Source of the DNA: Tribonema minus
Lineage: Eukaryota; Sar; Xanthophyceae; Tribonematales; Tribonemataceae
Length of the DNA: 64,000 nucleotides
Direction: 5' to 3'
NCBI GenBank assembly: GCA_017506865.1
Contig: JAFCMP010000057.1
Coordinates: forward strand, 992,001 to 1,056,000
Shown piece by piece: positions 4,901 to 58,335 of the stretch. The position numbers were made by a program, and so were the translations under genes. Under the pieces are notes generated by a model, which saw nothing but the letters and a program-made list of their open reading frames with translations, made no database searches and had not been told where the DNA came from. The stretch's first letter is position 1. Each line of letters starts with the position of its first letter.

Positions 4901-7796
4901 GTGTATCAGCCAGTGCGGCAGATGCAAAGATAAGGCCTGCATGGGTGCATAAAATACTATTTTGTACATTATCGTGGCACAGCAGCAAAGGACAATCATG
5001 ATGGTGGATCCACACGCACATCCATTTTGTGACATGTTATTAGACCGATGATATTGCGCTGGCAATATCGCAACATGCGTGTTACTTGAATGGCCATTGC
5101 CATATTGGGTTCTGTGAATTGCTGCTGCAGCGGTCTGCTTGGTGTGGACCAAACATGCATGAGTGAATGAGCCTCCATAGCATTGCAATGTGTCCATGAT
5201 GGCTTTCTGTTTTGCAGCACGCTCCAACCCAATGCTGTTGATGGTACTACCGCTGGCAGCAATTTAGAGCCGTGGATGTCAGGTTCATTCACGCTATCAC
5301 ATTTAAAACATTTGAGTATGATATTTAACATACAGATAGCATGCGCGCAGTTTGCAAAAAAATTCTCTACGCCACGTTCACCAAGTCAAATACTTCAATG
5401 CGCGCATCACCATTCCGGATTGGCAACTTCAGAGTAAACATTTGCCATACATTTGAGTATGTTATTTTACATACAGATAGCATGAGCGTAGTTTTCAACG
5501 TATTTCCCTACGTCACGTTCACCAAGGTGAAACACTTCAATGCGTGCATCACTTCCGGATTGGCAACTTCACCTTCAAGTTGAACGTTTGCCATTCGTCA
5601 CACGGTTCTCAGCAGTATGTAGAAGAATAACCCCTCCCACGCAGTCAAAGACGGGGAAATGAATATTATGAGCCCATGTTGCAATGCCTACGTGAAATTA
5701 AAATTATGCCCCAGCTATGCAGTAATGCAACATCAAGTCAAGCGGGCAAGCAAATTTTGCACTTGCCTGCCATGTTGATTCGCCCAGCTTCCCCTTGAGC
5801 TTCTCCTTCACATTCTTGATGAAGTGCCACTCGCAGATGAGGTGCACTGTTCCTGGCCAGGAAAGCCCCATGGCAGCTTCCGCAGCAAAATCCCTGCAAT
5901 GGAGGTGAAAAGCAGATGTTGCATGCGCATGTGAGACGGCTGTGCGCAAGGCGGGCTACTGGGCACACTGACAATGATATCATTGACATCCCCACCATAA
6001 TTCGCACACCTGTCTGTGAAGCACACACGAGGGTGCTTGCCGTTCACCATTTTCACGTAGTGGTCAAAGAACCACGTGAATGCCTCTGTGTCCTCCTTGT
6101 CCAAGACTGCCTGGCAGAAGAGTCGTGTCCTGTACACCAAGAGCGCCGCAATGAGTCGCAGTGAGAAAATGAATGCATCGCTCAGCAACATGCAGTCAAT
6201 TGTTAAGAACAGTGAAAAAGCAGTGTAGTCCATCAGCATTTGGCAGCTATACAGTATCGCTGACTGCTATGTCAATCACTGTAGTTTGGTGACGGCATGC
6301 ATTCAGCATTATTACATACTGCTCACTTGCTCTCGCCGTTCACGCCAACGATCACGCTCAGTGGCAGGCCATACTTGGTGGTGCCAAAAGTGCAGTCCTG
6401 CACAGGCGGCACAAAAGCATAGAAGTTGAGCGGAACATGATGTGTTGTCATTTCGTCATACAGCGATAATTTCCTATGAGCCGTTGATGACCACCTCCAT
6501 CATGGTGTGCGAATGTAGCTGAGCCAAATCATTTGGGCAAATATGAGTTTCAGTATGCACACTGTGACCGCATTGGTGCTGGGTTTTCCAGAGGCAGCTG
6601 CTGATCAAGTAGTAAGCGATGACAATGACACGGTGACACCAGTCAATTGCAGCGCACTGGCAATTACATACAGTACATCGTCAAAATATTCAGACCATGG
6701 GGTGGCAAGAGGGACAAAGTATACTGCCTTGAGACTAGGTACGTCATGATGCTGCATGAGTTGAGTGCAGCAGCCATGGAAGCATCACCGGTGCAGTAAC
6801 AGCAGCATACCTGTTGGATTACATCTAGGCCAAATTCCATAGCGCGCTCCACCTGCTCCTGAGTAGCCCAAAAAGCGCGCCTGAACGTGCAGTCCTCCTG
6901 AAGGTCGTATGATGCGTATCCTCCGTTGGCCTTCACCTCGCAGAGCGCTGCGATGAACTCTTTGCTATCACCCTTGGTGAACGCAATGCGTGCTCTGACG
7001 TCAGATTTTGTGTTGTTCAGCAGGGCGAGAGCTGATTGATCAAAAACCGCTGTGAAGTCACCACCGAAATGATGAGTCACGACAGTCTGCTGAAGCACCC
7101 TGCCACTCATAGTTGGTGCGGCACTCCAGTTCCTGACGTTCTGGATGATGTCATCCGTGAGGTCTTCCCTGGTGATGATGCGACCTTTATTACCAGGTGG
7201 CGCCACCGCTTCAGTCATGGCACTCAGCGCGTGATTGTGGCCGTCGTGGAATGATGTGAGTTGGGAAATTACCCATGGTGGCTCCTGGCTGGCATTCTGG
7301 CATGAGTTCTCATCTGGTGCTGTGTGCTGCTCCTTTGACACTGACTGTTGTCTGAGCTTTACAAGCCACTGGCACTCGCACTTGATGCATGTGCTTGCGA
7401 CTGCACGACGCTGCGCTTCTGGGTGCGTCTCTGAGCGCTTGCGAGGTGGTTTGCCAGCACAATGGCAGATAATCCAGAACAGAGGAGGGCTGCGTTGTTT
7501 GCTCTTGCAGTATACCTTGAAGCCAGCACTGGCAGCATACGTCTGCACCGCATCGATGGCATGCTGCCGGGTTGCAAACAGCCTGCTGTTGAGGTCAGCA
7601 CAGACCTGAAAATGGCGAGGCAGAAAACAGCAAAGCTATCAGGCAGGGATGCTGTACAGATCAAGGCAAGTATTGCATTACAGACAGGTATATACACTCC
7701 TTAACAGAGGAACCAGACACGTACCTCAGCGTCTGTCACGTTGTGGACCGCAGCAGTCTGTAACGAAGGCGCTGCCAGCTCCTGGAGCTGTTCCAT
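1976..7796 (-). CDS. MULE-family transposase with FAR1 DNA-binding, SWIM and PDZ-like domains
   Basis: Seven minus-strand exons join in frame to about 1180 aa: 7796-7725, 7605-6811, 6397-6327, 6129-6010, 5893-5767, 4841-4313, 3804-1976. The N-terminal part has a FAR1/WRKY-GCM1-type zinc finger (CIKCEC followed by HDGHNH). The MULE catalytic core follows: DCTFGTTKYGLPL (first Asp), CFTDRDFA across the exon 4/5 junction (second Asp), HLICEWHFIKN (C/H motif) and NSTQRCEGYF (Glu). A SWIM finger (CTCLETMRTGMLCRHVLAC) comes next, then a PDZ-like domain around GDSVTAIDGRRL, six or so Ala-rich repeats containing APLVRS, and a basic NLS-like tail (GKRARG..KKKK). All key residues are present. Intron 5 uses a GC donor, and the exon 7 acceptor reads CACCAAG rather than CAG. 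It could be an active transposon or a domesticated FAR1/FHY3-like regulator; no terminal repeats were found to decide. Confidence 0.85.
2520..2920 (-). repeat. In-frame Ala-rich tandem repeats inside the MULE protein
   Basis: GCC/GCT-rich repeats encode alternating poly-Ala blocks and APLVRS(M/L)DAAP spacers, with copy-to-copy length differences that all keep the frame. This suggests replication slippage under coding constraint. Opposite-strand ORFs here are shadows. Confidence 0.8.
5312..5575. repeat. Tandem duplication within MULE intron 5, unit about 135 bp
   Basis: Two diverged head-to-tail copies share CATTTGAGTATG, ACATACAGATAGCATG, ACGTTCACCAAG and TTCCGGATTGGCAACTTCA. No coding potential was seen. 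This lengthens the intron in the same manner as the repeat-filled introns of the host genes further right. Confidence 0.8.
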
Positions 7797-8266: not shown

Positions 8267-8390
8267 GTTACACCACACCAAGGGTGCCAAAGTAGTGGGC
8301 CTCGTGGTGGGCAACTGTACCAACGGTAGATGGCAGTTACGGAAGTTGAAAGATGAAGTTGTGGGGCGGATAAAGGGGCAGATTCCCACA
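8267..8390 (-). repeat. Terminal direct repeat (LTR-like), left copy
   Basis: A 124-bp repeat identical to 15383-15506. In element orientation it begins TGTGGGAATC, as LTRs usually begin TG, but it ends GTGTAAC rather than CA. It is short for an LTR. It contains part of an internal ~60-bp repeat (GTGGGCCT...GGCAGTTAC). Confidence 0.65.
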
Positions 8391-8502
8391 TACCCCCCTT
8401 GATGTACCTGTGATAACACCAGTGTGAACGTGGTGCATCACAAGAATATGCTCCCCCCTCCCTTATAGTTACTCAAACGGTGTCACAATAGCACCACATT
8501 GC

Positions 8503-8592
8503 AAAGCGGCCAATAGGGCGGCGATGCTGCTGACACCTAACAGCAAAAGCTGCATGTACGCAAAGCGGCCAATAGGGCGGCGATGCTGCTAA
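8503..8592. repeat. Tandem duplication near the 3' end of the LTR element, unit about 57 bp
   Basis: GCAAAGCGGCCAATAGGGCG occurs twice, followed in both copies by GCGATGCTGCT and AACAGC. It lies in the untranslated 3' region of the element, just downstream of the integrase reading frame. A CG dinucleotide run follows at about 8618-8640. Confidence 0.75.
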
Positions 8593-8749
8593 CATTGAAC
8601 AGCCAAGCTGTATGAAACGCGCGCGCGCGCGGCGCGCGACACACTACATTGCACATGGAGCGCAAAACAACAGACATGCGGCGGAGTGCGGCATGTACTT
8701 AGCGCGTGCGCGGCGACGCCCCCCTCCAACGCCTCTTGAAGTTCTTGGC

Positions 8750-11317
8750 TCAGGCGCGGGTGTCGAGGTTGATGGGCTCGGGAAGCGCGAAACGCGTGTC
8801 GAACGCGGTGACCATGTCGTGAAGGCCACGGTTGATGAGGTGACGACGGCTGAGCCAGTCAGTGCCGCTGAGGTCGCCGAAGTAGCGGACTTGGTAGACT
8901 TGCTTGCCGTCGGCGGCACGTCCACGCCCAGGCTTGCGCGCCACGATGGCCTCGACGGCGACGCACGGGTCCAACATACAGGCGACGTCGGCGTCGGCGC
9001 CGTCGGTGCGGCCAGGCGCGCGTGGCGCGTGAACCGTGAGTAGGGGGCGGCCCATGTAGACAAAGTCGCTTTCCGTGAGCGGCGATGGGCGCTCGCCGTC
9101 AGCGTAGCGGCGGACGTGCGCGATGTGGAAGCGCGTGCCGGTGGTAGCGTTGGCGGACATGCGTACTTCAACACATATGAGGTTGATGACGCGCAGCACC
9201 TCAAAAGGGCCTGCCCAGTCCGACTGAAGCTTGGGCGCGACGGCGATTTTGGGGTCCGGTACGGCGGCCACCCAGACGCGGTCGCCAACTGAGTAGGTAG
9301 GTATGTCGAGCGCGGCGGCGTCAGCGTCAAGGCGGCATTGTAGGGCCTCGCTGTTGCGGCGTAGCAGCTCGTATGCCTCCTGCAGTGTTGACTGAAGCTC
9401 GCGGCGGTAGTCGCTGGAAGTAGGCGGCGCGGGCTCGCCCAAGATGATGTCGATGGGAAGACGCGGGTGAAAGTCCATGTGGAGGAAGAATGGCGACTCA
9501 AAGACCGAGCGGCGGTACGCGGTGTTGGCGGCGAGGGAGTGCGCGAACAGTAGCCGGTCCCAATGCTGAGGGTGACGCAGGGCGTGTACGCGCATCATGT
9601 TGCCGAGTACGTCGTTGCCGCGCTCCACGATGGCGTTGGCCTGGGGGCGGTACGGCGTGGTGGTGGTCTGGTCGATGCCGAGCAGGTCGCAAAGCTCGCG
9701 AATGACGTCATTGACGAACTCCGTACCTTGGTCCGAGTGCAGGTACCGCGGCACGCCAAAGTAGGCCACCCAGTAGTCCACGATGCGCTGAGCGACGTGG
9801 CGGGGCGCCTTGCCTGGTATGCCGGTGTTGACGCGGAAGCGCGTGCAGGGGTCCACCAGTGTGCACACGTATAGGCTGCCATCAGCGGACGGCTGAAAGG
9901 GGCCCATAAGGTCGATGTGGAGGCCTTGGCGCGGCTCCAGTGTAGTGTTGAGCGTGCCGGAGGGGAGTTGCGCCTTGCGGTGGGGGGTCTTGGTGCGCTG
10001 ACACGTAATGCACGTGTCGCACCAGCGCAATACATCGGCGCGGTGCGTGGGCCAGTAGTACTTGGCGCGAACGCGGCGCAGCGTGACCTCCGCGCCCATG
10101 TGGCCGCCGGAGACGTGGTCGTCGTGGGTGGCGGTGAGCACTGTGGAGACCAAAACCTCAGGCACAAAGAGAGTAACGCGCTCCCTGTCGTTGCTGTACA
10201 CTGGTGACTGCTCCATGTCCACGCGGAATAATACGCCATCGTCACTGAGACGGTAGTTGGCGAGTTCGGCGGCGGCAGAAGTGGGAGCGTCACCGGCGGC
10301 AGATGACTGAGCAGTAGAGTCGCCGGCGAGCTGTCGCAGTATGGGGCCGGCGGCGGCGTCAGCGGCTTGAAGTTCGCGAAGGCGCTCTAACGTAAGGCCA
10401 GGCAGGCTGGAGTAGCTTGCGGGCGCGCTGGAGTCGCCGTCGCCTTCCGCTGAGGCGGTGAAGTCCGCGTCGTTGATGAAGTCCGCGCCGCCAGCGTCTG
10501 CAACGCTAGAGGCGGCAGCGGACGGCATGGGCGCGCTGCTGCTGTCCGATGGGGCTGGCGAAGAGGCAGGGTCGGCGGCGGCAGCGGGCTCAGAAGCGCT
10601 GGCGGAGCGGCCGACGCCATCGGCGCCAGCGGTGCCAAGGACGGCCGGCTGCGTGCTAACTTCAACGTCGGGGCTGGCGCCGGCGGGCGAAGCGGCGGCG
10701 CTGACGGCTGCGTCGGTGGTGCCAAGGGCGGCTGACTGCACGCCAACTTCAACATCGGCGCTAGCGCCGGCGGAAGAAGTGGCGGCGCTGGCAGTTGCAT
10801 CAGCCGCGGCGGAAGTGGTAGCGGTGGCAGCGGGCTTGGCGGCGCTGCGGAGAACCCTAGTGTTGGGCACCAGAGGGTTTGGAGCGATGACAAGCGCGGC
10901 GCTGTTGAGCGCTGCGCGGTCAAACTGAACAGCTCCTGACGCCATGTGGGCCTTGGCGCGAGTCGGCGCGCAAATGAGGCGGCCAGAGATGATCGTGGAG
11001 ACGGGCAGTAAGTCCAGCGCTCCTACCATGGCCACTGGCAGGCAGCTAGAGAGGGTCTTCATGTGAATGGGCAGGATGGCGTTGGCGGCCAGGCGTCCCT
11101 CCAAAGCGCGGGGGAGGGGCAGTGGCGGCGAAATAGGCTCCATGCCCTGAATGCGCAGCATGTCGCTGAAGCTCAAAGTATGAGCCTCAGAAGGTGCGCA
11201 GGCATCGCCGGCGCGCGGCACGTAGTTGGCCGGCAGGCGCTGAGCGATGCGCGCTAGAAGAGTGGGCGCGGGCGCGTGAGCATCCAAGATGCAAGCGCCG
11301 GCGGGGTAGCGGGACAT
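8750..11317 (-). CDS. Retrotransposon ORF: end of methyltransferase domain, integrase, chromodomain
   Basis: An 855-codon frame. Its first ~130 residues contain SFSDMLRIQGM and LAANAILPIHMKTL, which match the late conserved motifs (IX and X) of C5 cytosine methyltransferases. A long Ala/Ser-rich linker follows. The integrase has the HHCC zinc finger (HVSGGHMG ... CDTCITCQRTK), then a DDE core: HIDLMGPF, HSDQGTEFVND and PQANAIVERGND. The C-terminal segment (VEAIVARKPGRGRA ... VRYFGDLSGTDWLSRRHL) reads as a chromodomain, which in chromoviruses directs integration to modified chromatin. Part of the 8267-15506 element. Confidence 0.85.
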   Translation of the reverse strand: MSRYPAGACILDAHAPAPTLLARIAQRLPANYVPRAGDACAPSEAHTLSFSDMLRIQGMEPISPPLPLPRALEGRLAANAILPIHMKTLSSCLPVAMVGALDLLPVSTIISGRLICAPTRAKAHMASGAVQFDRAALNSAALVIAPNPLVPNTRVLRSAAKPAATATTSAAADATASAATSSAGASADVEVGVQSAALGTTDAAVSAAASPAGASPDVEVSTQPAVLGTAGADGVGRSASASEPAAAADPASSPAPSDSSSAPMPSAAASSVADAGGADFINDADFTASAEGDGDSSAPASYSSLPGLTLERLRELQAADAAAGPILRQLAGDSTAQSSAAGDAPTSAAAELANYRLSDDGVLFRVDMEQSPVYSNDRERVTLFVPEVLVSTVLTATHDDHVSGGHMGAEVTLRRVRAKYYWPTHRADVLRWCDTCITCQRTKTPHRKAQLPSGTLNTTLEPRQGLHIDLMGPFQPSADGSLYVCTLVDPCTRFRVNTGIPGKAPRHVAQRIVDYWVAYFGVPRYLHSDQGTEFVNDVIRELCDLLGIDQTTTTPYRPQANAIVERGNDVLGNMMRVHALRHPQHWDRLLFAHSLAANTAYRRSVFESPFFLHMDFHPRLPIDIILGEPAPPTSSDYRRELQSTLQEAYELLRRNSEALQCRLDADAAALDIPTYSVGDRVWVAAVPDPKIAVAPKLQSDWAGPFEVLRVINLICVEVRMSANATTGTRFHIAHVRRYADGERPSPLTESDFVYMGRPLLTVHAPRAPGRTDGADADVACMLDPCVAVEAIVARKPGRGRAADGKQVYQVRYFGDLSGTDWLSRRHLINRGLHDMVTAFDTRFALPEPINLDTRA

Positions 11318-11489
11318 GTAGACGTAGGCGTCCGGCTGGCTGGGCAGGACGTCGTGGACGGTGAGGCGGCGCGGCTGCTAGTGGCAATCGCGAATGCACT
11401 GGTCCAGTAGCATGAGGCGCGACCCAGAGCGCTCACTGCGTTGCAGTGACACAACGTAGGTACAGTGGCGGCGCCAAGAGCCGCTGCGT

Positions 11490-13511
11490 CTAACGTGTAT
11501 ATGCCGATGTCGTAGCGCCGCTGAGAAGCATGTCGCGGTACGCGCGGAAGGTGGCACTGCTGAGAAAAGGGGGCACGTTCTCCAAGATGCCGAGCACGGG
11601 CCGGCACCGTAGCTGCAGGCGGCCGTAGTCGAGTGTGGAGATGGCGAGTGGTCCTTCGATGCGCGGGCCAGCGGCGGAGTAGGGCTGGCAGTTGCTGCCA
11701 TGTACCAAGGCGTAGACAGAGCGTACGCGTAGGAAACGGTAAACCTCCTCCGAGGCAAGGTCGGCGCAGATGGTGGGCACTGTGGGGAAGCGCTGCGAGT
11801 ACACATCTAGTGTGCGTTGGTCGAGCTCCACGGCGATGATGGGGCGCATGTAGCCAGCGGCGCCCTCCGTGGCGCCGCCGATGCCACAGCCCAAGTCGGC
11901 AAAGGTGGCTGGCTGCATAATGCTGCGCGATGCGCCTGGCCGGCGCAGCGGCAGTTGAAGCGGTAAAGCGGCAGCGGGCACGTCGTATAGCTCCTGTAGC
12001 TGATCCATGCCAATGATGCGGCTGAAACCGTCGGCAGGCTGATGCTCGCCCTTGAGGTAGCGCACGGTGTAGTCGTACTCTTCAAGCTGCAAGGCCCAGC
12101 GCGTGAGCACTGCGCTGCTGGCCATGTTGCGGTTGAGGAAGAGTAGAGGCTGGCAGTCAGTCCACACTGTGAACGACTCGTAGCGTAAGTAGCCGCGGAA
12201 GAACTCCACGGCCTTGACGATGGCCATGAGCTCCTTGACGGTGGCGCCGTAGTTGGCCTCCGCGGGGGATAGCACCTTGCTGAAGAAAGAGATGACGCGC
12301 TCGTAGGGCTGTAGGGCGCCGGCGCGATCGGGACCAGCTTCTGCATCCGGCGGGCACTGTGTGAGCACTGCGCCTACGGCGTAGGCGGACGCGTCGGTGT
12401 AGAGCTGGTATGCCATCTGAGGGTCAGCGTATGTGAGGACGGGCTCCGATAGCAGGGCGGCGCGCAGCTGAGCCATGCAACGGTCGTGGCGCTCACACCA
12501 CTGGCGGAATGGATCAGGTCCCGCAGTCTTGCGTAAGAGGTGGTTGAGCGGTGCCACGAGCTCTCCGTGACGGGCAATGTGCTTGCTGTAGAACGCGACC
12601 ATGCCGATGAAGCTGCGCAGCTCCTTGACGGTGCGCGGCGAGGGCACTGCAGAGACGATCTCCACATTGCGAGTGAGCGGCTTGACGCCTGAAGCAGAAA
12701 CTTCAAACCCGACAAACTTGGTTGAAGTTGTACCAAAAGAGCACTTGCTCACCTTCCACACCAGGCCGTAGTAGCGGGTGCGGAGTAGGATGGCATAAAT
12801 GAGTGCGCGGTACTGCTGGTAGTTGGCGGCGTGTGGGCTCATGTCGTCGACGTACTTGGTGGCGCCGGCGGGGCGCAGGTCGCCAAAGCACATGTCGGCG
12901 ACGCGGTTAGAGGCGGTGGGAGCGACCTTGCTGCCAAAGCCGAGGCGTGTAGGCTGAATGATGCCAAGCTGCGGTATTTCCAGCGCGTACAGGTGGCGGC
13001 ACTCGGGGTCGATGACCAAGTTGTTGAACGCCCCAAGCGCGTCCATGCTGCCAAAGATGCGGCTGCCGCGGAAGTCGCCCATGAGCTGCGGTATGTGGAC
13101 AACGGGGCCGTAATCGTCGGCGGTGTCCTTGTTGATGCGGCGGTAGTCGCCGCAGATGCGCCACTTGCTGGTGTGCGGCTTGGGGGTGACGAGGGGCTGG
13201 CTCAGCTGGTCAGTGCGCGCGCAGCGCTCGTGAAGGCCAGCTGCAAGCTGCTGCTCGCCCCAAGTGAGCAGTATGGCAAGGGCCACGGGGCTGAAGCGGC
13301 GTGTGGGTTCACGAAAGGGCTTGTAGGAAGCCTTCATGACCGGCCGGAAGTAGCCGAAGGAAGCAGAGACGTTGCCGACGTCCGTGTCTTCTTGTCCGAA
13401 GCAGTCCTCGAACTGTTGGAGCAGGGTGACGAAGTCTTGGCGCTGCTCCGCCGTGAATGGGCTGTCGGTTGGGATGAGCGACGCGAAGTCCACCGGCGGC
13501 TTGCTGGTCAT
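11490..13511 (-). CDS. Retrotransposon ORF: reverse transcriptase, RNase H, N-terminal part of C5 methyltransferase
   Basis: A 673-codon frame. The Ty3/gypsy reverse transcriptase core shows WRICGDYRRIN, MDALGAFNNL, LGFGSKVAPT and YVDDM. The tether has FVGFEVS and LRSFIGMVAFY. RNase H shows YTDASAYAVGAVL, KELMAIVKAVEFF and WTDCQPL. After GEHQPADGFSRI the frame does not go on to integrase. Instead it enters a cytosine methyltransferase: FADLGCGIGG (SAM-binding motif I), IIAVELD (motif II), GSNCQPYS (motif IV with the catalytic Cys) and LGILENVPPF (motif VI, ENV). This cargo is discussed in the findings. Confidence 0.88.
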   Translation of the reverse strand: MTSKPPVDFASLIPTDSPFTAEQRQDFVTLLQQFEDCFGQEDTDVGNVSASFGYFRPVMKASYKPFREPTRRFSPVALAILLTWGEQQLAAGLHERCARTDQLSQPLVTPKPHTSKWRICGDYRRINKDTADDYGPVVHIPQLMGDFRGSRIFGSMDALGAFNNLVIDPECRHLYALEIPQLGIIQPTRLGFGSKVAPTASNRVADMCFGDLRPAGATKYVDDMSPHAANYQQYRALIYAILLRTRYYGLVWKVSKCSFGTTSTKFVGFEVSASGVKPLTRNVEIVSAVPSPRTVKELRSFIGMVAFYSKHIARHGELVAPLNHLLRKTAGPDPFRQWCERHDRCMAQLRAALLSEPVLTYADPQMAYQLYTDASAYAVGAVLTQCPPDAEAGPDRAGALQPYERVISFFSKVLSPAEANYGATVKELMAIVKAVEFFRGYLRYESFTVWTDCQPLLFLNRNMASSAVLTRWALQLEEYDYTVRYLKGEHQPADGFSRIIGMDQLQELYDVPAAALPLQLPLRRPGASRSIMQPATFADLGCGIGGATEGAAGYMRPIIAVELDQRTLDVYSQRFPTVPTICADLASEEVYRFLRVRSVYALVHGSNCQPYSAAGPRIEGPLAISTLDYGRLQLRCRPVLGILENVPPFLSSATFRAYRDMLLSGATTSAYTR

Positions 13512-13904
13512 GTCGCGAGGCTCAGCAGGGGGGCCAAATAGGCGCGACGGCTCCAGTGGATCTGCGAGCAGGGGATGTTTGGCTACGACGCCGGAGCAAC
13601 TTTAGCCACCGTGAAGGTCAGCATCGGCAGCGGAGCCGAACATCTTGTACCAGTCGTCGGTACGCCAGTGAGACGGCATGCCGACGGGGATGACGCAAGG
13701 GTCCGTGAATGCTGTGGCGCGTAGGTATGCGGGGGCGCCCAGGTTGACAGAACCGTGATGAGCTGGCCGCGGGCGCTGCTGTGCTGCGCCAGGCGTGCCA
13801 GAGTTGTCGGGGCCGCGGCTAGGGAGCTGGCGGCGTGCGTCTTGGGGCCGTTCTCCGCTGCTGGGGTTGAGCGTGGATGGACGCGGCGGCGGCGCCTGCT
13901 GGCG

Positions 13905-15113
13905 CTACTGGCTGCGGTCTCGAGAAGGCGTGAGTGCGGAGGCGGCACCTGCAGGGGGAGCAAAACGCAGCGCAGAGTTGCCACCTTGGGGGGTGGGAGC
14001 ACTCTGCGGACGGGAATTGTCGCCGTGACGGTTGCCGCGGTAGGGGCGGCGCCCGCTGCCGTTGCGGTTGCCGTTGCCCTGGTTGTTGTTGCCGTAGTTG
14101 AGCGATGTGTCGTCATCAACGTAGTCGGCGGAGGGAGAGCTGTTGAAGGGAGATGGCGACCCATGCTGAGGTGGCATGAAGTTGGCGCTGCTGGCGCCGT
14201 TGGTCGCGGTGGAATTCTCTTTGTTGCGCAAAACGATGGTGCGTTCAATGCGCTGAAGAGACGCCACCATCTCCTCCTCGTTGAAGCGAGAATGCGTCTG
14301 CAGGCGCATCTGCTGGCGCAGTCCCGGAAGTAGGCCCCCCTCGAGGATGGTGAGGAACAGGCACTCCTGAAGCTCAGGCAGAGGGGCGGCGGAGGCGCCG
14401 CTGCTGCCGTCAACGGAGACGGCGCGAGTGCGGCGAACCTGGCCGTATAGGGTAGACAGTTGCTGAAGCGTGCGGCGGCCGCGTAGAATGTAGGCCTTGC
14501 TGGTTTCCTTGGCCCCCTGCTTGAGGTCGACCACGGCGCGGCAGCTGTCCTCGAACGCTGCCGGGGGGGCGAAGTGCTCGAGCAGCACCTGGGCGATGCC
14601 GGTGAAGGAAGTTGGCCAGGTGCCGGCCTGGCGGAGAGAGGTAGCAAGCGCATGTGCCTCGCCTCTCAAACTGAGGAAGGCATAGTGGCAGATGTCGTGG
14701 GGCGCGGTGACTTTCTGCGTCTCCATATAGGAGATGAAGCGCTCTACCCATTCCGTGACGTCTTGTTCCGTACGTACGCCTTGAAGTAGCTTGGCGCCAT
14801 GGTAGTCGGGGAGGTTCTTGACGGCGTCTGGCTTGAGAGGTTTTTCTACTGCGCCACGACCTGTGAGGGGGATGCCGATGCTGCGCAACGAGGCAAGCAG
14901 CTTGGCATGGTCACGGGCGGCGCGCTCCTCGGGGGTGCGATGGCGCCGCGGGCGCAGGTCGATGCCTGCGGCGGCGGCGGCGGCGGCGACTTCAGCGGCG
15001 GTGGCGGCCGCGGTCGGGTCCAGTGTAGAGGGCGCGCCCGCGAAGGAGGGTGCGGCGTCTGCTGGAGGTCCGGTGGCAGAATGTGGGGTAGGCTGTTTTA
15101 AGCCCCATGACAC
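13905..15113 (-). CDS. Retrotransposon gag
   Basis: A 402-codon frame starting MSWGLKQPTPHS. Its centre matches the Retrotrans_gag domain pattern: LPDYHGAKLLQGVRTEQDV, WVERFISYME, the helical segment around HYAFLSLRGEAHALA, and LLEHFAPPAAFEDSCRAVVDLKQG. The C-terminal part is Asn/Arg/Gly-rich and basic, as expected for a nucleic-acid-binding tail; I see no CCHC knuckle. It sits first in element order, upstream of the RT frame. Confidence 0.8.
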   Translation of the reverse strand: MSWGLKQPTPHSATGPPADAAPSFAGAPSTLDPTAAATAAEVAAAAAAAGIDLRPRRHRTPEERAARDHAKLLASLRSIGIPLTGRGAVEKPLKPDAVKNLPDYHGAKLLQGVRTEQDVTEWVERFISYMETQKVTAPHDICHYAFLSLRGEAHALATSLRQAGTWPTSFTGIAQVLLEHFAPPAAFEDSCRAVVDLKQGAKETSKAYILRGRRTLQQLSTLYGQVRRTRAVSVDGSSGASAAPLPELQECLFLTILEGGLLPGLRQQMRLQTHSRFNEEEMVASLQRIERTIVLRNKENSTATNGASSANFMPPQHGSPSPFNSSPSADYVDDDTSLNYGNNNQGNGNRNGSGRRPYRGNRHGDNSRPQSAPTPQGGNSALRFAPPAGAASALTPSRDRSQ

Positions 15114-15382
15114 AGAGTGTGTGATGGCCAGACCAGTTGTAGGTCAGCCCACACTCAGCTGTAGGTGAAAAACAGCAGGCCACTTGTTGACTCCAGGTTG
15201 GCAAGGCAGGGCAGGGTTGCAAAGTCTGACACTGTCGTGTTGCAGGGTAAGAGTGATTGCATTGCAAGGGAGCAGAGGAGAGCTGCTGCCAACAGTTGGC
15301 AACTTAAGAGAGCCAGTGTGGGCACACCCAGGGCCAGAGTGGTGGGCCTGATTGGTAGACAACTAACCAATCATAGGTGGCA

Positions 15383-15506
15383 GTTACACCACACCAAGGG
15401 TGCCAAAGTAGTGGGCCTCGTGGTGGGCAACTGTACCAACGGTAGATGGCAGTTACGGAAGTTGAAAGATGAAGTTGTGGGGCGGATAAAGGGGCAGATT
15501 CCCACA
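15383..15506 (-). repeat. Terminal direct repeat (LTR-like), right copy
   Basis: Identical to 8267-8390. The plus-strand sequence just inside it (15320-15382) contains a diverged version of the repeat's own internal unit (GTGGGCCTGATTGG...GGCAGTTAC). The sequence outside is unlike that flanking the left copy. Confidence 0.65.
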
Positions 15507-15597: not shown

Positions 15598-15668
15598 GGC
15601 TTGGTGGTTCAATGGCAGAATGGATGCTTGCCATGCATTCGACCCGGGTTCGATTCCCGGCCAAGTCA
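15598..15668 (+). tRNA. trnG-GCC: tRNA-Gly(GCC)
   Basis: A 71-nt cloverleaf. The acceptor stem GGCTTGG pairs with CCAAGTC (one G-T wobble), with discriminator A. The D arm is GGTTCAATGGCAGAA (A-box region). The anticodon stem is GATGC/GCATT with loop TTGCCAT, giving anticodon GCC. The T arm is CCCGGGTTCGATTCCCGG, which contains the B box GGTTCGATTCC. No intron and no encoded CCA. A T5 run at 15674-15678 is a suitable RNA polymerase III terminator. An A-rich run directly precedes the gene. Confidence 0.95.
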
Positions 15669-34421: not shown

Positions 34422-34699
34422 TGTTGCTCCCAGTTGCAGTCAGTGCCCCATGTCTGCTCTCGGTTTATGGACCCAAATCAAGCCGATTGTGCTACATGTG
34501 GTGCTGCCTTCCCTACAGCATGCCTCTTGCAGCACCGACAAGCTGGTTTCAGCCTCAAAGCTTCGACTAATTGCGCCGAGGGTGATGTTCAACAATAACG
34601 GAAAGTAACTGTCTGGCGAGAGTTGAAGTACATGACACACTTCGGAAAAGCGAGAGAGAGAGAGAGAGAGAGCCCCAGCCCTGTTGGCGACGCGACGTC
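34422..34699. promoter_or_regulatory. Short shared promoter region between two divergent genes
   Basis: 278 bp separate the start codons of the coiled-coil gene (minus) and the IQUB-like gene (plus). It contains a (GA)n tract at 34652-34672 just upstream of the IQUB-like ATG. A bidirectional promoter is inferred from the spacing only. Confidence 0.5.
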
Positions 34700-36268
34700 A
34701 TGAGTGACGAAGAAGAGGAAAAGGCGGAAGCTCGGAGTGTGGAGGAGGAGGCGTTTGGAGTGCAGGATGCGAGAGACTTCGTGCAGGAGGAGGCAGTCGA
34801 AGCTGCCATGGACTCTGAGCCTGGCTCAGATGGCGCGTACCAAAGACGAGATAGCGGGCAGCAAAGTTCTCCGCGAGAGAACTCCGCACAGGACGCTTTA
34901 AATGCTGGTTATAACGAAGATCTCGATCACCCGCACAGTGAGTCACAGGAGCCGGCATTGGAATCGCAGGATGGCGAGGCAGCGGAAGCGCGCCTCACTG
35001 GCGATGCGGATGAAGCGGCTCCCATCGCCTCGGTCCCGGCATCTCTTGATGCTATGGACAGCTATCCCACCTACTGCGACCCTTTCTACCGCATGCCCAC
35101 GGAGCTGGCTGTGCGGGTAGAAAGGGGAGACGGGGATGCGGAAGTGATAGTGGTCATGGTGGAGAAGTGCCCCGAGGGCGGCTGCAAGCCGTACCTCGGC
35201 GGCTACAAGGCGCGCGCCACCGGCAAGACCTTCCACCACGCCAGCACGCAGTTCGGCAGCAGAAAGAGGGTCGTCAAGGACACCAGCAACCTGCGCAGCC
35301 GGGACACGCAGACCGTGCAGCTGCGCACCGTCCGCGCCCAGACGCGCCGCGAGTGCGGCACGCAGATGGAGCGCCGCGGCCTGCACCTGAGCACTGACGC
35401 CGACGCTCCGTGCAGCGTCGGCGCCTACGTCACCGCCGACGAGTACTGGGCGCGCCGCGCGGCATGCGTCGTCACCATGCAGCGCTACTGGCGCGGCCAC
35501 GCGGCGCGCGCGCGCGTCTGGGGGCTGCGGCAGCGCCGCTGGCAGCGCACCGTCGCGGCGCGGCAGCGCGCGGCCGCGGCCGCCGCCGCCGAGGACCGCG
35601 CGCGCGAGCGCGAGGCGCGCCGCCGCCGCCACCCGCGCACCGCCGCCGACTTCGAGCTGCTCTACAACGAGCTCGCGGCGTGGTGCGCGGCGGAGGCGGC
35701 GCGCGCCGCGGAGCTGCCGGAGGGGCCGCCGCGGCGCGCGGCGATGGCGGCGCTGCTGCGCAAGGAGACGCGGCTGCTGCAGACAATAGAGGGGCTGAAG
35801 CGCGCGGCGGCGCGCGCGGGGGCCGGTGCGCGCGTCGCGCGCACCCTCGACCTCATGGCGCGGCCGAAGCGCTGGGAGCTGCGCGACGGCAGCGCGGCGC
35901 GCGTCGCGACGGAGTGGACGGCGCGCGCGGCGGAGCTCGCGGCGCTGTACCGCGCGCTCGCCGCGCCGCTCGTGGGCGCCGCGGAGCGCCTCGACGTGCT
36001 GCTGCACGTCAAGTGGGCGGTGCGCGGCTTTGAGTGCCGCCTCACGCGCGAGCTCGTGGAGCTGCTGGACCGCGAGGCCGACCTGCTGAGCCGCGGGCGC
36101 GCGGCGCGCTCCATGGCGGGCCTGCGGCTGCGCGCATGCGGCCTGTTCCTGCGCTTCATCGAGACGCCGGACTTCAACCCGGAGGCGTCGCGCTTCCTGC
36201 GCGCGCCGCCGTCGCACCAGCACCTCGCGGTGGCGGCGTCCAAGCAGCTGGTGGGCATCGCGTGCTGA
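34700..36268 (+). CDS. IQUB-like axonemal protein (IQ motif and ubiquitin-domain family)
   Basis: A single exon, 522 aa. After an acidic N-terminal region (MSDEEEEKAEARSVEEE) it follows the conserved core of IQUB proteins in order: KPYLGGYKARATGKTFHHAS-TQ, RDTQTVQLRTVRAQT, TADEYWARRAACVVTMQRYWRGHAAR (IQ motif, ~residue 255), the Arg-rich helix, HPRTAADFELLYNELAAW, LLRKETRLLQTI, LDLMARPKRWEL, AERLDVLLHVKWAV.GFECRLTRELVELLDREADL, and ETPDFNPEASRFLR. IQUB is associated with radial spokes of motile cilia, so the organism probably has flagella. The N-terminal ubiquitin-like domain is not recognisable, and the C-terminal Cys-rich segment of animal IQUB is absent because the frame ends LVGIAC. The start fits the acidic N-terminus and the short divergent promoter. 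Confidence 0.88.
   Translation: MSDEEEEKAEARSVEEEAFGVQDARDFVQEEAVEAAMDSEPGSDGAYQRRDSGQQSSPRENSAQDALNAGYNEDLDHPHSESQEPALESQDGEAAEARLTGDADEAAPIASVPASLDAMDSYPTYCDPFYRMPTELAVRVERGDGDAEVIVVMVEKCPEGGCKPYLGGYKARATGKTFHHASTQFGSRKRVVKDTSNLRSRDTQTVQLRTVRAQTRRECGTQMERRGLHLSTDADAPCSVGAYVTADEYWARRAACVVTMQRYWRGHAARARVWGLRQRRWQRTVAARQRAAAAAAAEDRAREREARRRRHPRTAADFELLYNELAAWCAAEAARAAELPEGPPRRAAMAALLRKETRLLQTIEGLKRAAARAGAGARVARTLDLMARPKRWELRDGSAARVATEWTARAAELAALYRALAAPLVGAAERLDVLLHVKWAVRGFECRLTRELVELLDREADLLSRGRAARSMAGLRLRACGLFLRFIETPDFNPEASRFLRAPPSHQHLAVAASKQLVGIAC

Positions 36269-51702: not shown

Positions 51703-58335
<6,633 letters not shown>

Follow-up and report, generated by a model that had tools for sequence, protein, structure and literature searches.

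A long terminal repeat (LTR) retrotransposon of the Ty3/Gypsy type with its own C5-cytosine DNA methyltransferase (methylase) domain was found on the minus strand at 8267-15506 of the window, the whole analyzed stretch of 64,000 nucleotides from the xanthophyte alga Tribonema minus (assembly GCA_017506865.1, contig JAFCMP010000057.1, positions 992,001 to 1,056,000). The domains are ordered as reverse transcriptase (RT), RNase H, methylase, integrase zinc-binding domain (H2C2), and integrase core (rve). On balance, I favor the explanation that the window copy is a dead Ty3-type copy, and that its methylase was captured once, was inherited together with RT, was moved twice, and would serve to methylate the cDNA of the element.

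A methylase domain between RNase H and integrase

All features of the element lie on the minus strand, and its coding part was examined with open reading frames and Pfam. Pol frame a (11490..13601, 703 aa) contains RT (12699..13184, residues 140-301; PF00078, RVT_1, E-value 2.9e-14), RNase H (12075..12425, residues 393-509; PF17917, RT_RNaseH, 3.2e-26), and the N-terminal part of the methylase with motifs I to VI (11541..11906, residues 566-687; PF00145, 7.3e-8, 32.6 bits against a curated cut-off of 22). Pol frame b (8750..11377, 875 aa) contains the remaining part of the methylase, H2C2 (9986..10165; PF17921, Integrase_H2C2, 4.4e-18), rve (9644..9937; PF00665, 1.3e-15), and a C-terminal tail. 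The C-terminal part of the methylase (10978..11377), a target-recognition-like segment and motif X, has no Pfam match of its own and was delimited by comparison with two relatives, L052 and L051. The first-pass annotation, made from the letters alone, had placed a C5-methyltransferase between the RNase H and the integrase of an LTR retrotransposon. This order is borne out by the Pfam matches, including that of PF00145 in the very segment it had named, and the peptides it had quoted (FADLGCGIGG, IIAVELD, GSNCQPYS, LGILENVPPF, DMLRIQGM, and LAANAILPIHM) are all present in the two pol frames. Its assignment of a chromodomain to this element was not confirmed: the tail (8753..9000) is chromodomain-like by eye only and drew no Pfam match, even with E allowed up to 5, and the segment past the integrase (9104..9286) has only a weak SH3_Tf2-1 match under the cut-off (PF24626, 3.3e-3).

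The PF00145 matches between RNase H and integrase are stronger in the relatives (L052, 55.2 bits and 1e-14; L051, 61 bits and 1.7e-16). The catalytic Cys codon of the window methylase is at 11688-11690 within S-N-C-Q. Thus, motif IV of the window family is N-C-Q instead of the usual P-C-Q, with the Cys kept, while L051 has P-C-Q. When 11 retroelement methylases were aligned, every one of them had both Gly residues of motif I, the E-N pair, and the R-x-R pair; 10 had the catalytic Cys and ENV, and eight had the Pro before the Cys. The solved chains nearest to the profile of these 11 methylases are DNMT2, the Escherichia coli prophage enzyme 3g7u, M.HaeIII, M.HhaI, and DNMT1. The 60 of 66 profile matches listed (E up to 0.98) include 9bap and 9baq, presumably Cryptococcus DNMT5, but no chain of DNMT3. 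The unbroken N-terminal piece of the window methylase alone matches 3g7u (6.7e-4). An AlphaFold model of 11493-11951 (153 aa, mean predicted local distance difference test score 78) has its best fold matches in DNMT2, 3g7u, and DNMT1, and the first DNMT3A chain ranks 22nd. These results indicate that the window-type domain is a C5-methyltransferase by profile, with predicted activity on DNA, and that the retroelement methylase is not DNMT3-like by profile and fold ranking.

The element shares several features with Ty3/Gypsy (Metaviridae) elements: direct LTRs bounded by TG...CA, an integrase downstream of RT and RNase H, and gag and an aspartic protease upstream of RT, although the gag is seen in the window and the protease motif in L052, where it is similar to L051 at 5.9e-5. 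The gag-type frame (13905..15143, 412 aa) has a Retrotrans_gag match barely above the cut-off (PF03732, 2.3e-5, around 14454-14684). The 5′ LTR (15082..15506, 425 bp, TGTGGG...CCCACA) is identical at 414 of 426 positions to the 3′ LTR region of a sibling, L053. The copy at 8267..8390, identical at 124 of 124 positions to 15383-15506, is a truncated 3′ LTR of which the first 124 bp are left, because the alignment to L053, where the LTR is longer, gives a length of 425 bp. With the 3′ LTR cut short, no target-site duplication is legible, and no primer tRNA was assigned to the bases that follow the 5′ LTR. Since this LTR stretch is identical, though short, the window copy looks recent and probably is. 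Before RT, comparison with siblings by blastn revealed a stretch that the window copy has lost, about 2.2 kb when measured against L052 and L053 and about 1.4 kb against L034 and L037. In L052, this stretch contains the aspartic protease motif. A 66-bp inverted patch at the junction of this internal deletion (13574..13639) resembles what template switching or break repair might leave. The methylase frame is broken between about 11490 and about 11377. Thus, the window copy, with 1.4-2.2 kb missing, 124 of 425 bp of the 3′ LTR left, and a broken methylase frame, is dead, and because of the broken frame it is unlikely to yield a working enzyme.

Sibling copies, three layouts, and the number of captures

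The whole assembly (158 Mb, 554 contigs) was searched with pol frame a, and the best 63 of 802 candidates were scored. At least 11 other window-type places were found at 78% identity or more. As the first-pass annotation had implied for an element-borne domain, the siblings keep the methylase: nine of the 11, at 97-99% identity, have it, and the two exceptions are deleted remnants, one of which (C135, 81-87%) has lost everything past RT, RNase H and integrase included, while the other (C509:245, 78%) is a short RT fragment. In L052, protease, RT, RNase H, methylase, H2C2, and rve are encoded in a single frame of 2029 aa, whose sequence diverges past the integrase core, and the open frames of other window-type siblings reach 2585 aa. 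L051 (C112), at 52% identity, has the same domain order with the integrase in a separate frame. In a JGI metagenome protein, P0014, RNase H is joined to the same methylase at about 83% identity; thus, an error in a single assembly does not account for the junction. Protein relatives were found for none of 7989 candidates with the L052 polyprotein region, for two of 7997 with the L051 domain, and for 57 of 7995 with the 11-row alignment. Six peptide patterns of the L052 domain had no match in the IMG/VR viral contigs.

Is the methylase confined to one Ty3/Gypsy lineage, such as the first-pass annotation had proposed for the capture? It is not: a related domain is present in all checked Ty3-type frames of at least 2000 aa, at three positions. 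Related methylase domains were found in other Ty3-type families of the assembly (L054-L062). The layout RNase H-methylase-integrase defines group A (the window type, L051, and L052), the layout methylase-protease-RT group B (L055, L056, and L060), and the layout protease-methylase-RT groups C, E, and F (L061, L054, L058, and L062). The protease calls rest on weak Pfam matches for L055 and L061, on similarity to these for L056, L060, L054, L058, and L059, and on the motif alone for L062; no protease was placed in L057, and no RT lies within the retrieved stretch of L059. A chromodomain does occur in another methylase-bearing family: L054 (G000 C340) has protease, methylase, RT, RNase H, integrase, and chromodomain (Chromo, 1e-6) in a frame of 2936 aa.

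In a survey of RNase H matches, in which 150 of 432 candidates were scored, all 49 matches located in open frames of at least 2000 aa have a methylase-type match in reach, that is, on the same contig from 5.5 kb before to 2.5 kb after, whatever the strand and frame of the methylase match. A few families account, through near-copies, for many of the 49. For the three window-type RNase H matches, the methylase lies inside the pol match itself, and seven of the 49 frames belong to the loop-less type F1 described below. No Ty3-type family without a methylase domain was seen among the families above the scoring limit. Merging the coordinates of methylase and pol matches gave at least 309 places more than 6 kb apart, a number which includes fragments, comes from searches that scored part of the candidates, and has the retroelement context shown for part of the places. 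A chance match was ruled out as an explanation by the PF00145 hit, the sibling copies, and the 49 of 49 frames.

A deposited gene model of T. minus, P0046 (JKP88DRAFT_249838), is a piece of an L058-type methylase-bearing retroelement; its one matching place in the assembly is 100% identical over residues 13-262 and, with two stops inside, 99% identical over residues 258-483. The assembly also has free-standing C5-methyltransferase frames of 367-390 aa (L001, L002, and L003) with the strongest PF00145 scores among the matches listed (to 1.7e-35). L001 and L002 fall apart from the retroelement enzymes in the first of the two trees below.

The reading that I infer to be the best is that the domain is old, was co-inherited with RT, and was relocated. 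When RT and methylase trees of ten families were compared, six of the seven splits were in common, and one of 20000 random trees reached six; some of the shared splits merely join close subfamilies. In a second methylase tree (12 retroelement and 17 cellular rows), from which P0007, P0036, P0048, P0014, L001, and L002 were left out, the retroelement branch is supported at 100/97 with groups D and F and at 97/97 without them. Alternatively, the three layouts might reflect three separate captures from one donor methylase family without relocation. The three positions (B, C/E/F, and A layouts) would be accounted for directly, and the deep nodes are unsure (53/70 in the second tree); nevertheless, the RT and methylase trees agree both between and within groups in those six of seven splits, and constraint tests rejected A with C/E alone (approximately unbiased test, p-AU 0.022) and B with C/E alone (0.005), while A with B alone was not rejected (0.38). 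I consider separate captures unlikely, though by no means negligible, and hold one capture with two relocations with moderate confidence. Some points weigh against a single capture. In the first tree (13 retroelement rows and 22 cellular and host rows), the retroelement methylase branch has a support of 69/80. The cellular rows are mostly unnamed proteins, and the eukaryotic DNMT1, DNMT3, and DNMT5 are outside both trees. Support for the grouping of D and F, which are long branches, with B differs between the trees (92/74 and 53/70).

Selection, CG mutations, and the role of the domain

The ratio of nonsynonymous to synonymous changes (dN/dS) of the methylase is 0.42 among nine window-type copies, 0.20 among 11 L055-type copies, 0.59 among three E copies, 0.25 between two of the three D copies tried, and 0.20-0.27 between subfamilies, where dS exceeds 1. 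A comparison of L030 and L019 gave 0.14 (pN/pS, binomial p 1.5e-10). For RT and RNase H, the ratio is 0.59 among seven window-type copies. By these ratios, the methylase is mostly under purifying selection. Could the domain instead be a functionless passenger, such as a host gene that became fused accidentally or through an assembly error? The window copy itself is broken, but the siblings have open frames and many copies, the ratios are mostly well below 1, and the metagenome relative has the same junction; this reading has next to no probability.

C-to-T singletons among the copies were counted at CG and at other C sites, and a singleton was kept only if at least 18 of 20 neighbours agreed. 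In the pooled count, 48 of 2190 CG sites have such a change, vs 45 of the 4991 remaining C sites, which gives an odds ratio of 2.46 (p 2e-5). The window type has 29 of 1041 vs 23 of 2011 (p 0.0016), and the L055 type has 18 of 390 vs 21 of 1245 (p 0.002), with 38 of the 50 changes of the latter count in one divergent copy, L030; the L054 type has 1 of 759 vs 1 of 1735. No excess of transversions was found at CG (7 vs 20, p 0.68). The C-to-T excess fits CG methylation of the copies, whichever enzyme is responsible.

It is likely that catalysis was not retained everywhere. In L062 (F1; G000 C214, 2681-3844), motif I, E-N-A-P, and R-x-R are present, while the motif IV loop and its Cys are gone. 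F1 is a CATALYTICALLY dead branch, an abundant subfamily that keeps a methylase-like domain. The 27 matches that reach 375 aa and 98% identity all have exactly the length of L062, so that they appear to share the loop gap, the sequence having been read for L062 alone; four of the 27 lie within frames of 3452-3455 aa. In relatives of F1 at about 63%, the match is broken at the loop point by extra residues, relatives at 66% are about 25 residues longer, and the F2 relative L063 (C54, 106 bases read) keeps the Cys in R-C-E. To judge from these sequences, a single loss of catalysis is probable, and the family in which it took place went on spreading. This is a warning that at least one family can do without catalysis, or that it is supplied in trans.

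The domain may have been retained for a function other than catalysis, which would then be optional; it could bind cDNA or host DNA, for example, or form a structural part of Gag-Pol. The missing motif IV loop of F1 (L062 as read, and 27 of 27 matches by gap-free length) is consistent with this, as are the R-C-E of F2 in place of P-C-Q and the lack of the Pro before the Cys in two of the 10 others (N-C-Q in L052 and S-C-V in L060). Conversely, the Cys and ENV are kept in 10 of 11 aligned methylases, R-x-R is kept in all 11, and F2 retains the Cys. I regard this explanation as improbable. Somewhat less probable still is that the methylase targets the DNA of the host or of rival elements, quieting rivals, limiting its own copy number, or marking target sites. 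A domain present in so many copies could alter the host methylome, as argued for Symbiodinium (PMC5890265), and the CG excess of C-to-T changes in the copies would also agree. From general knowledge, however, an enzyme encoded in pol should be packaged together with the RNA and cDNA of its own element.

The favored mechanism, cDNA methylation following a single capture, would run as follows. One C5-methyltransferase, neither DNMT3-like nor near any sampled cellular enzyme, was most likely captured once by an ancestral element, inherited alongside RT, and shifted to a new place in the polyprotein two times. The enzyme would be synthesized within Gag-Pol, be packaged, and act before integration on the new double-stranded cDNA, with CG as the most likely target. 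The methylated copy would then look like host DNA or quickly enter a CG-methylated state kept by the host DNMT5. The methylation step and its benefit to the element are suggested by the analogy to SymbioDIRS-Dnmt3 and by the weak CG mutation signal. Several results speak against the favored explanation. The dN/dS is 0.69 among five L054-type methylases (four synonymous and eight other differences, all pairs summed) and 1.06 for the window-type RT alone, in a count that entered two copies twice. CpG depletion was looked for in the element and not found, the observed/expected ratio being 1.06 there and 0.95 elsewhere in the window. Host enzymes may be the source of the CG signal; T. minus has DNMT5 (PMC10538959). 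Finally, catalysis is not needed in every family, because F1 lost the catalytic loop and is nevertheless abundant.

More tentatively, and with rather less than even confidence, I propose that the singly captured methylase is a standard Ty3-type module of the xanthophyte lineage, which was relocated twice following the RT tree and which, in one abundant subfamily, was kept after losing its catalytic loop. If this is true, the domain would have a second, non-catalytic role, and the loss of catalysis in F1 would be a natural experiment on the worth of self-methylation to a retrotransposon. Since the layouts and the active-looking and dead versions coexist in one 158 Mb genome, a single long-read methylome could be used to address the old question of how methylating DNA benefits a retrotransposon.

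Other features of the window and comparison with known systems

A tRNA-Gly gene at 15598-15668 lies about 92 bp off the outer end of the 5′ LTR. In yeast, Ty3 insertion is tRNA-linked, and by analogy a tRNA-linked insertion of the window element is possible. A frame at 34586-36265, probably a flagellar host gene, has a weak IQ motif in addition to an IQUB-like domain (PF25805, 1.2e-43). Part of a protein kinase gene (PF00069, 4.1e-13) is at 52964-53854. A 323-aa frame at 6664-7635, with a faint FAR1-like match (0.43, under the cut-off), is perhaps a MULE-type remnant.

The principle of methylase-bearing retrotransposons is already known, because de Mendoza and co-workers described it (de Mendoza 2018, PMC5890265). 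They reported C5-methylases under purifying selection in long interspersed nuclear elements (LINE) and DIRS elements of Symbiodinium and in a Gypsy element of Klebsormidium; CG activity in yeast was found for the Symbiodinium DIRS enzymes and was inconclusive for the LINE and Gypsy enzymes. The nearest counterpart is KnitGypsy-Dnmt3 of Klebsormidium nitens, likewise an LTR Gypsy element whose Pol polyprotein includes a C5-methyltransferase, with that domain under purifying selection (PMC5890265). However, its methylase is Dnmt3-related and its repeats are DIRS-arranged according to the same source, while the window element has ordinary LTRs, the Tribonema profile matches DNMT2, bacterial, and DNMT1 chains with no DNMT3 among those listed, and three layouts occur in one genome. 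SymbioDIRS-Dnmt3 and SymbioLINE-Dnmt of Symbiodinium resemble the Tribonema elements in having hundreds of methylase-bearing copies in one algal genome (PMC5890265). The Symbiodinium DIRS elements have two structures differing in domain order, and the activity shown in yeast is de novo CG methylation. In contrast to the Ty3-type elements, they are tyrosine-recombinase DIRS elements and LINEs, and Symbiodinium also has LINE and DIRS elements without a methylase domain (PMC5890265).

Among related hosts, the brown alga Ectocarpus has Ty3/Gypsy polyproteins which also carry extra domains, namely a chromodomain, Tudor, and an N-terminal NADAR in Pol (PMC12477816). In contrast, no C5-methyltransferase is seen in them in what was covered of that paper, and the two uses of the word methyltransferase in its main text refer to a Sola transposon gene and to histone enzymes. 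Ectocarpus lacks cytosine methylation. T. minus (Xanthophyceae) has not only DNMT5 but also HELLS, CDCA7, and a DNMT4-clade protein (PMC10538959). Ty3/Gypsy and DIRS elements encoding DAM and DCM, with adenine and cytosine enzymes pooled, were found in Stramenopiles, red and green algae, and others (PMC6338049), and these could include the Tribonema kind.

Within the literature covered, a weak test, no report of methylase-bearing retrotransposons in Tribonema was found. On that same footing, the host group, a non-DNMT3 enzyme in ordinary LTR elements, and its presence in every checked Ty3-type frame appear to be new, as do three layouts in one genome following one tree and the dead branch. Cytosine methylation is usually directed at transposons. 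Here, a stramenopile alga has Ty3-type elements which, to the extent that they were checked, carry a methylase-type domain of their own. By the literature covered, this is the third well-described host group after dinoflagellates and charophytes, and its enzyme is not DNMT3-like.

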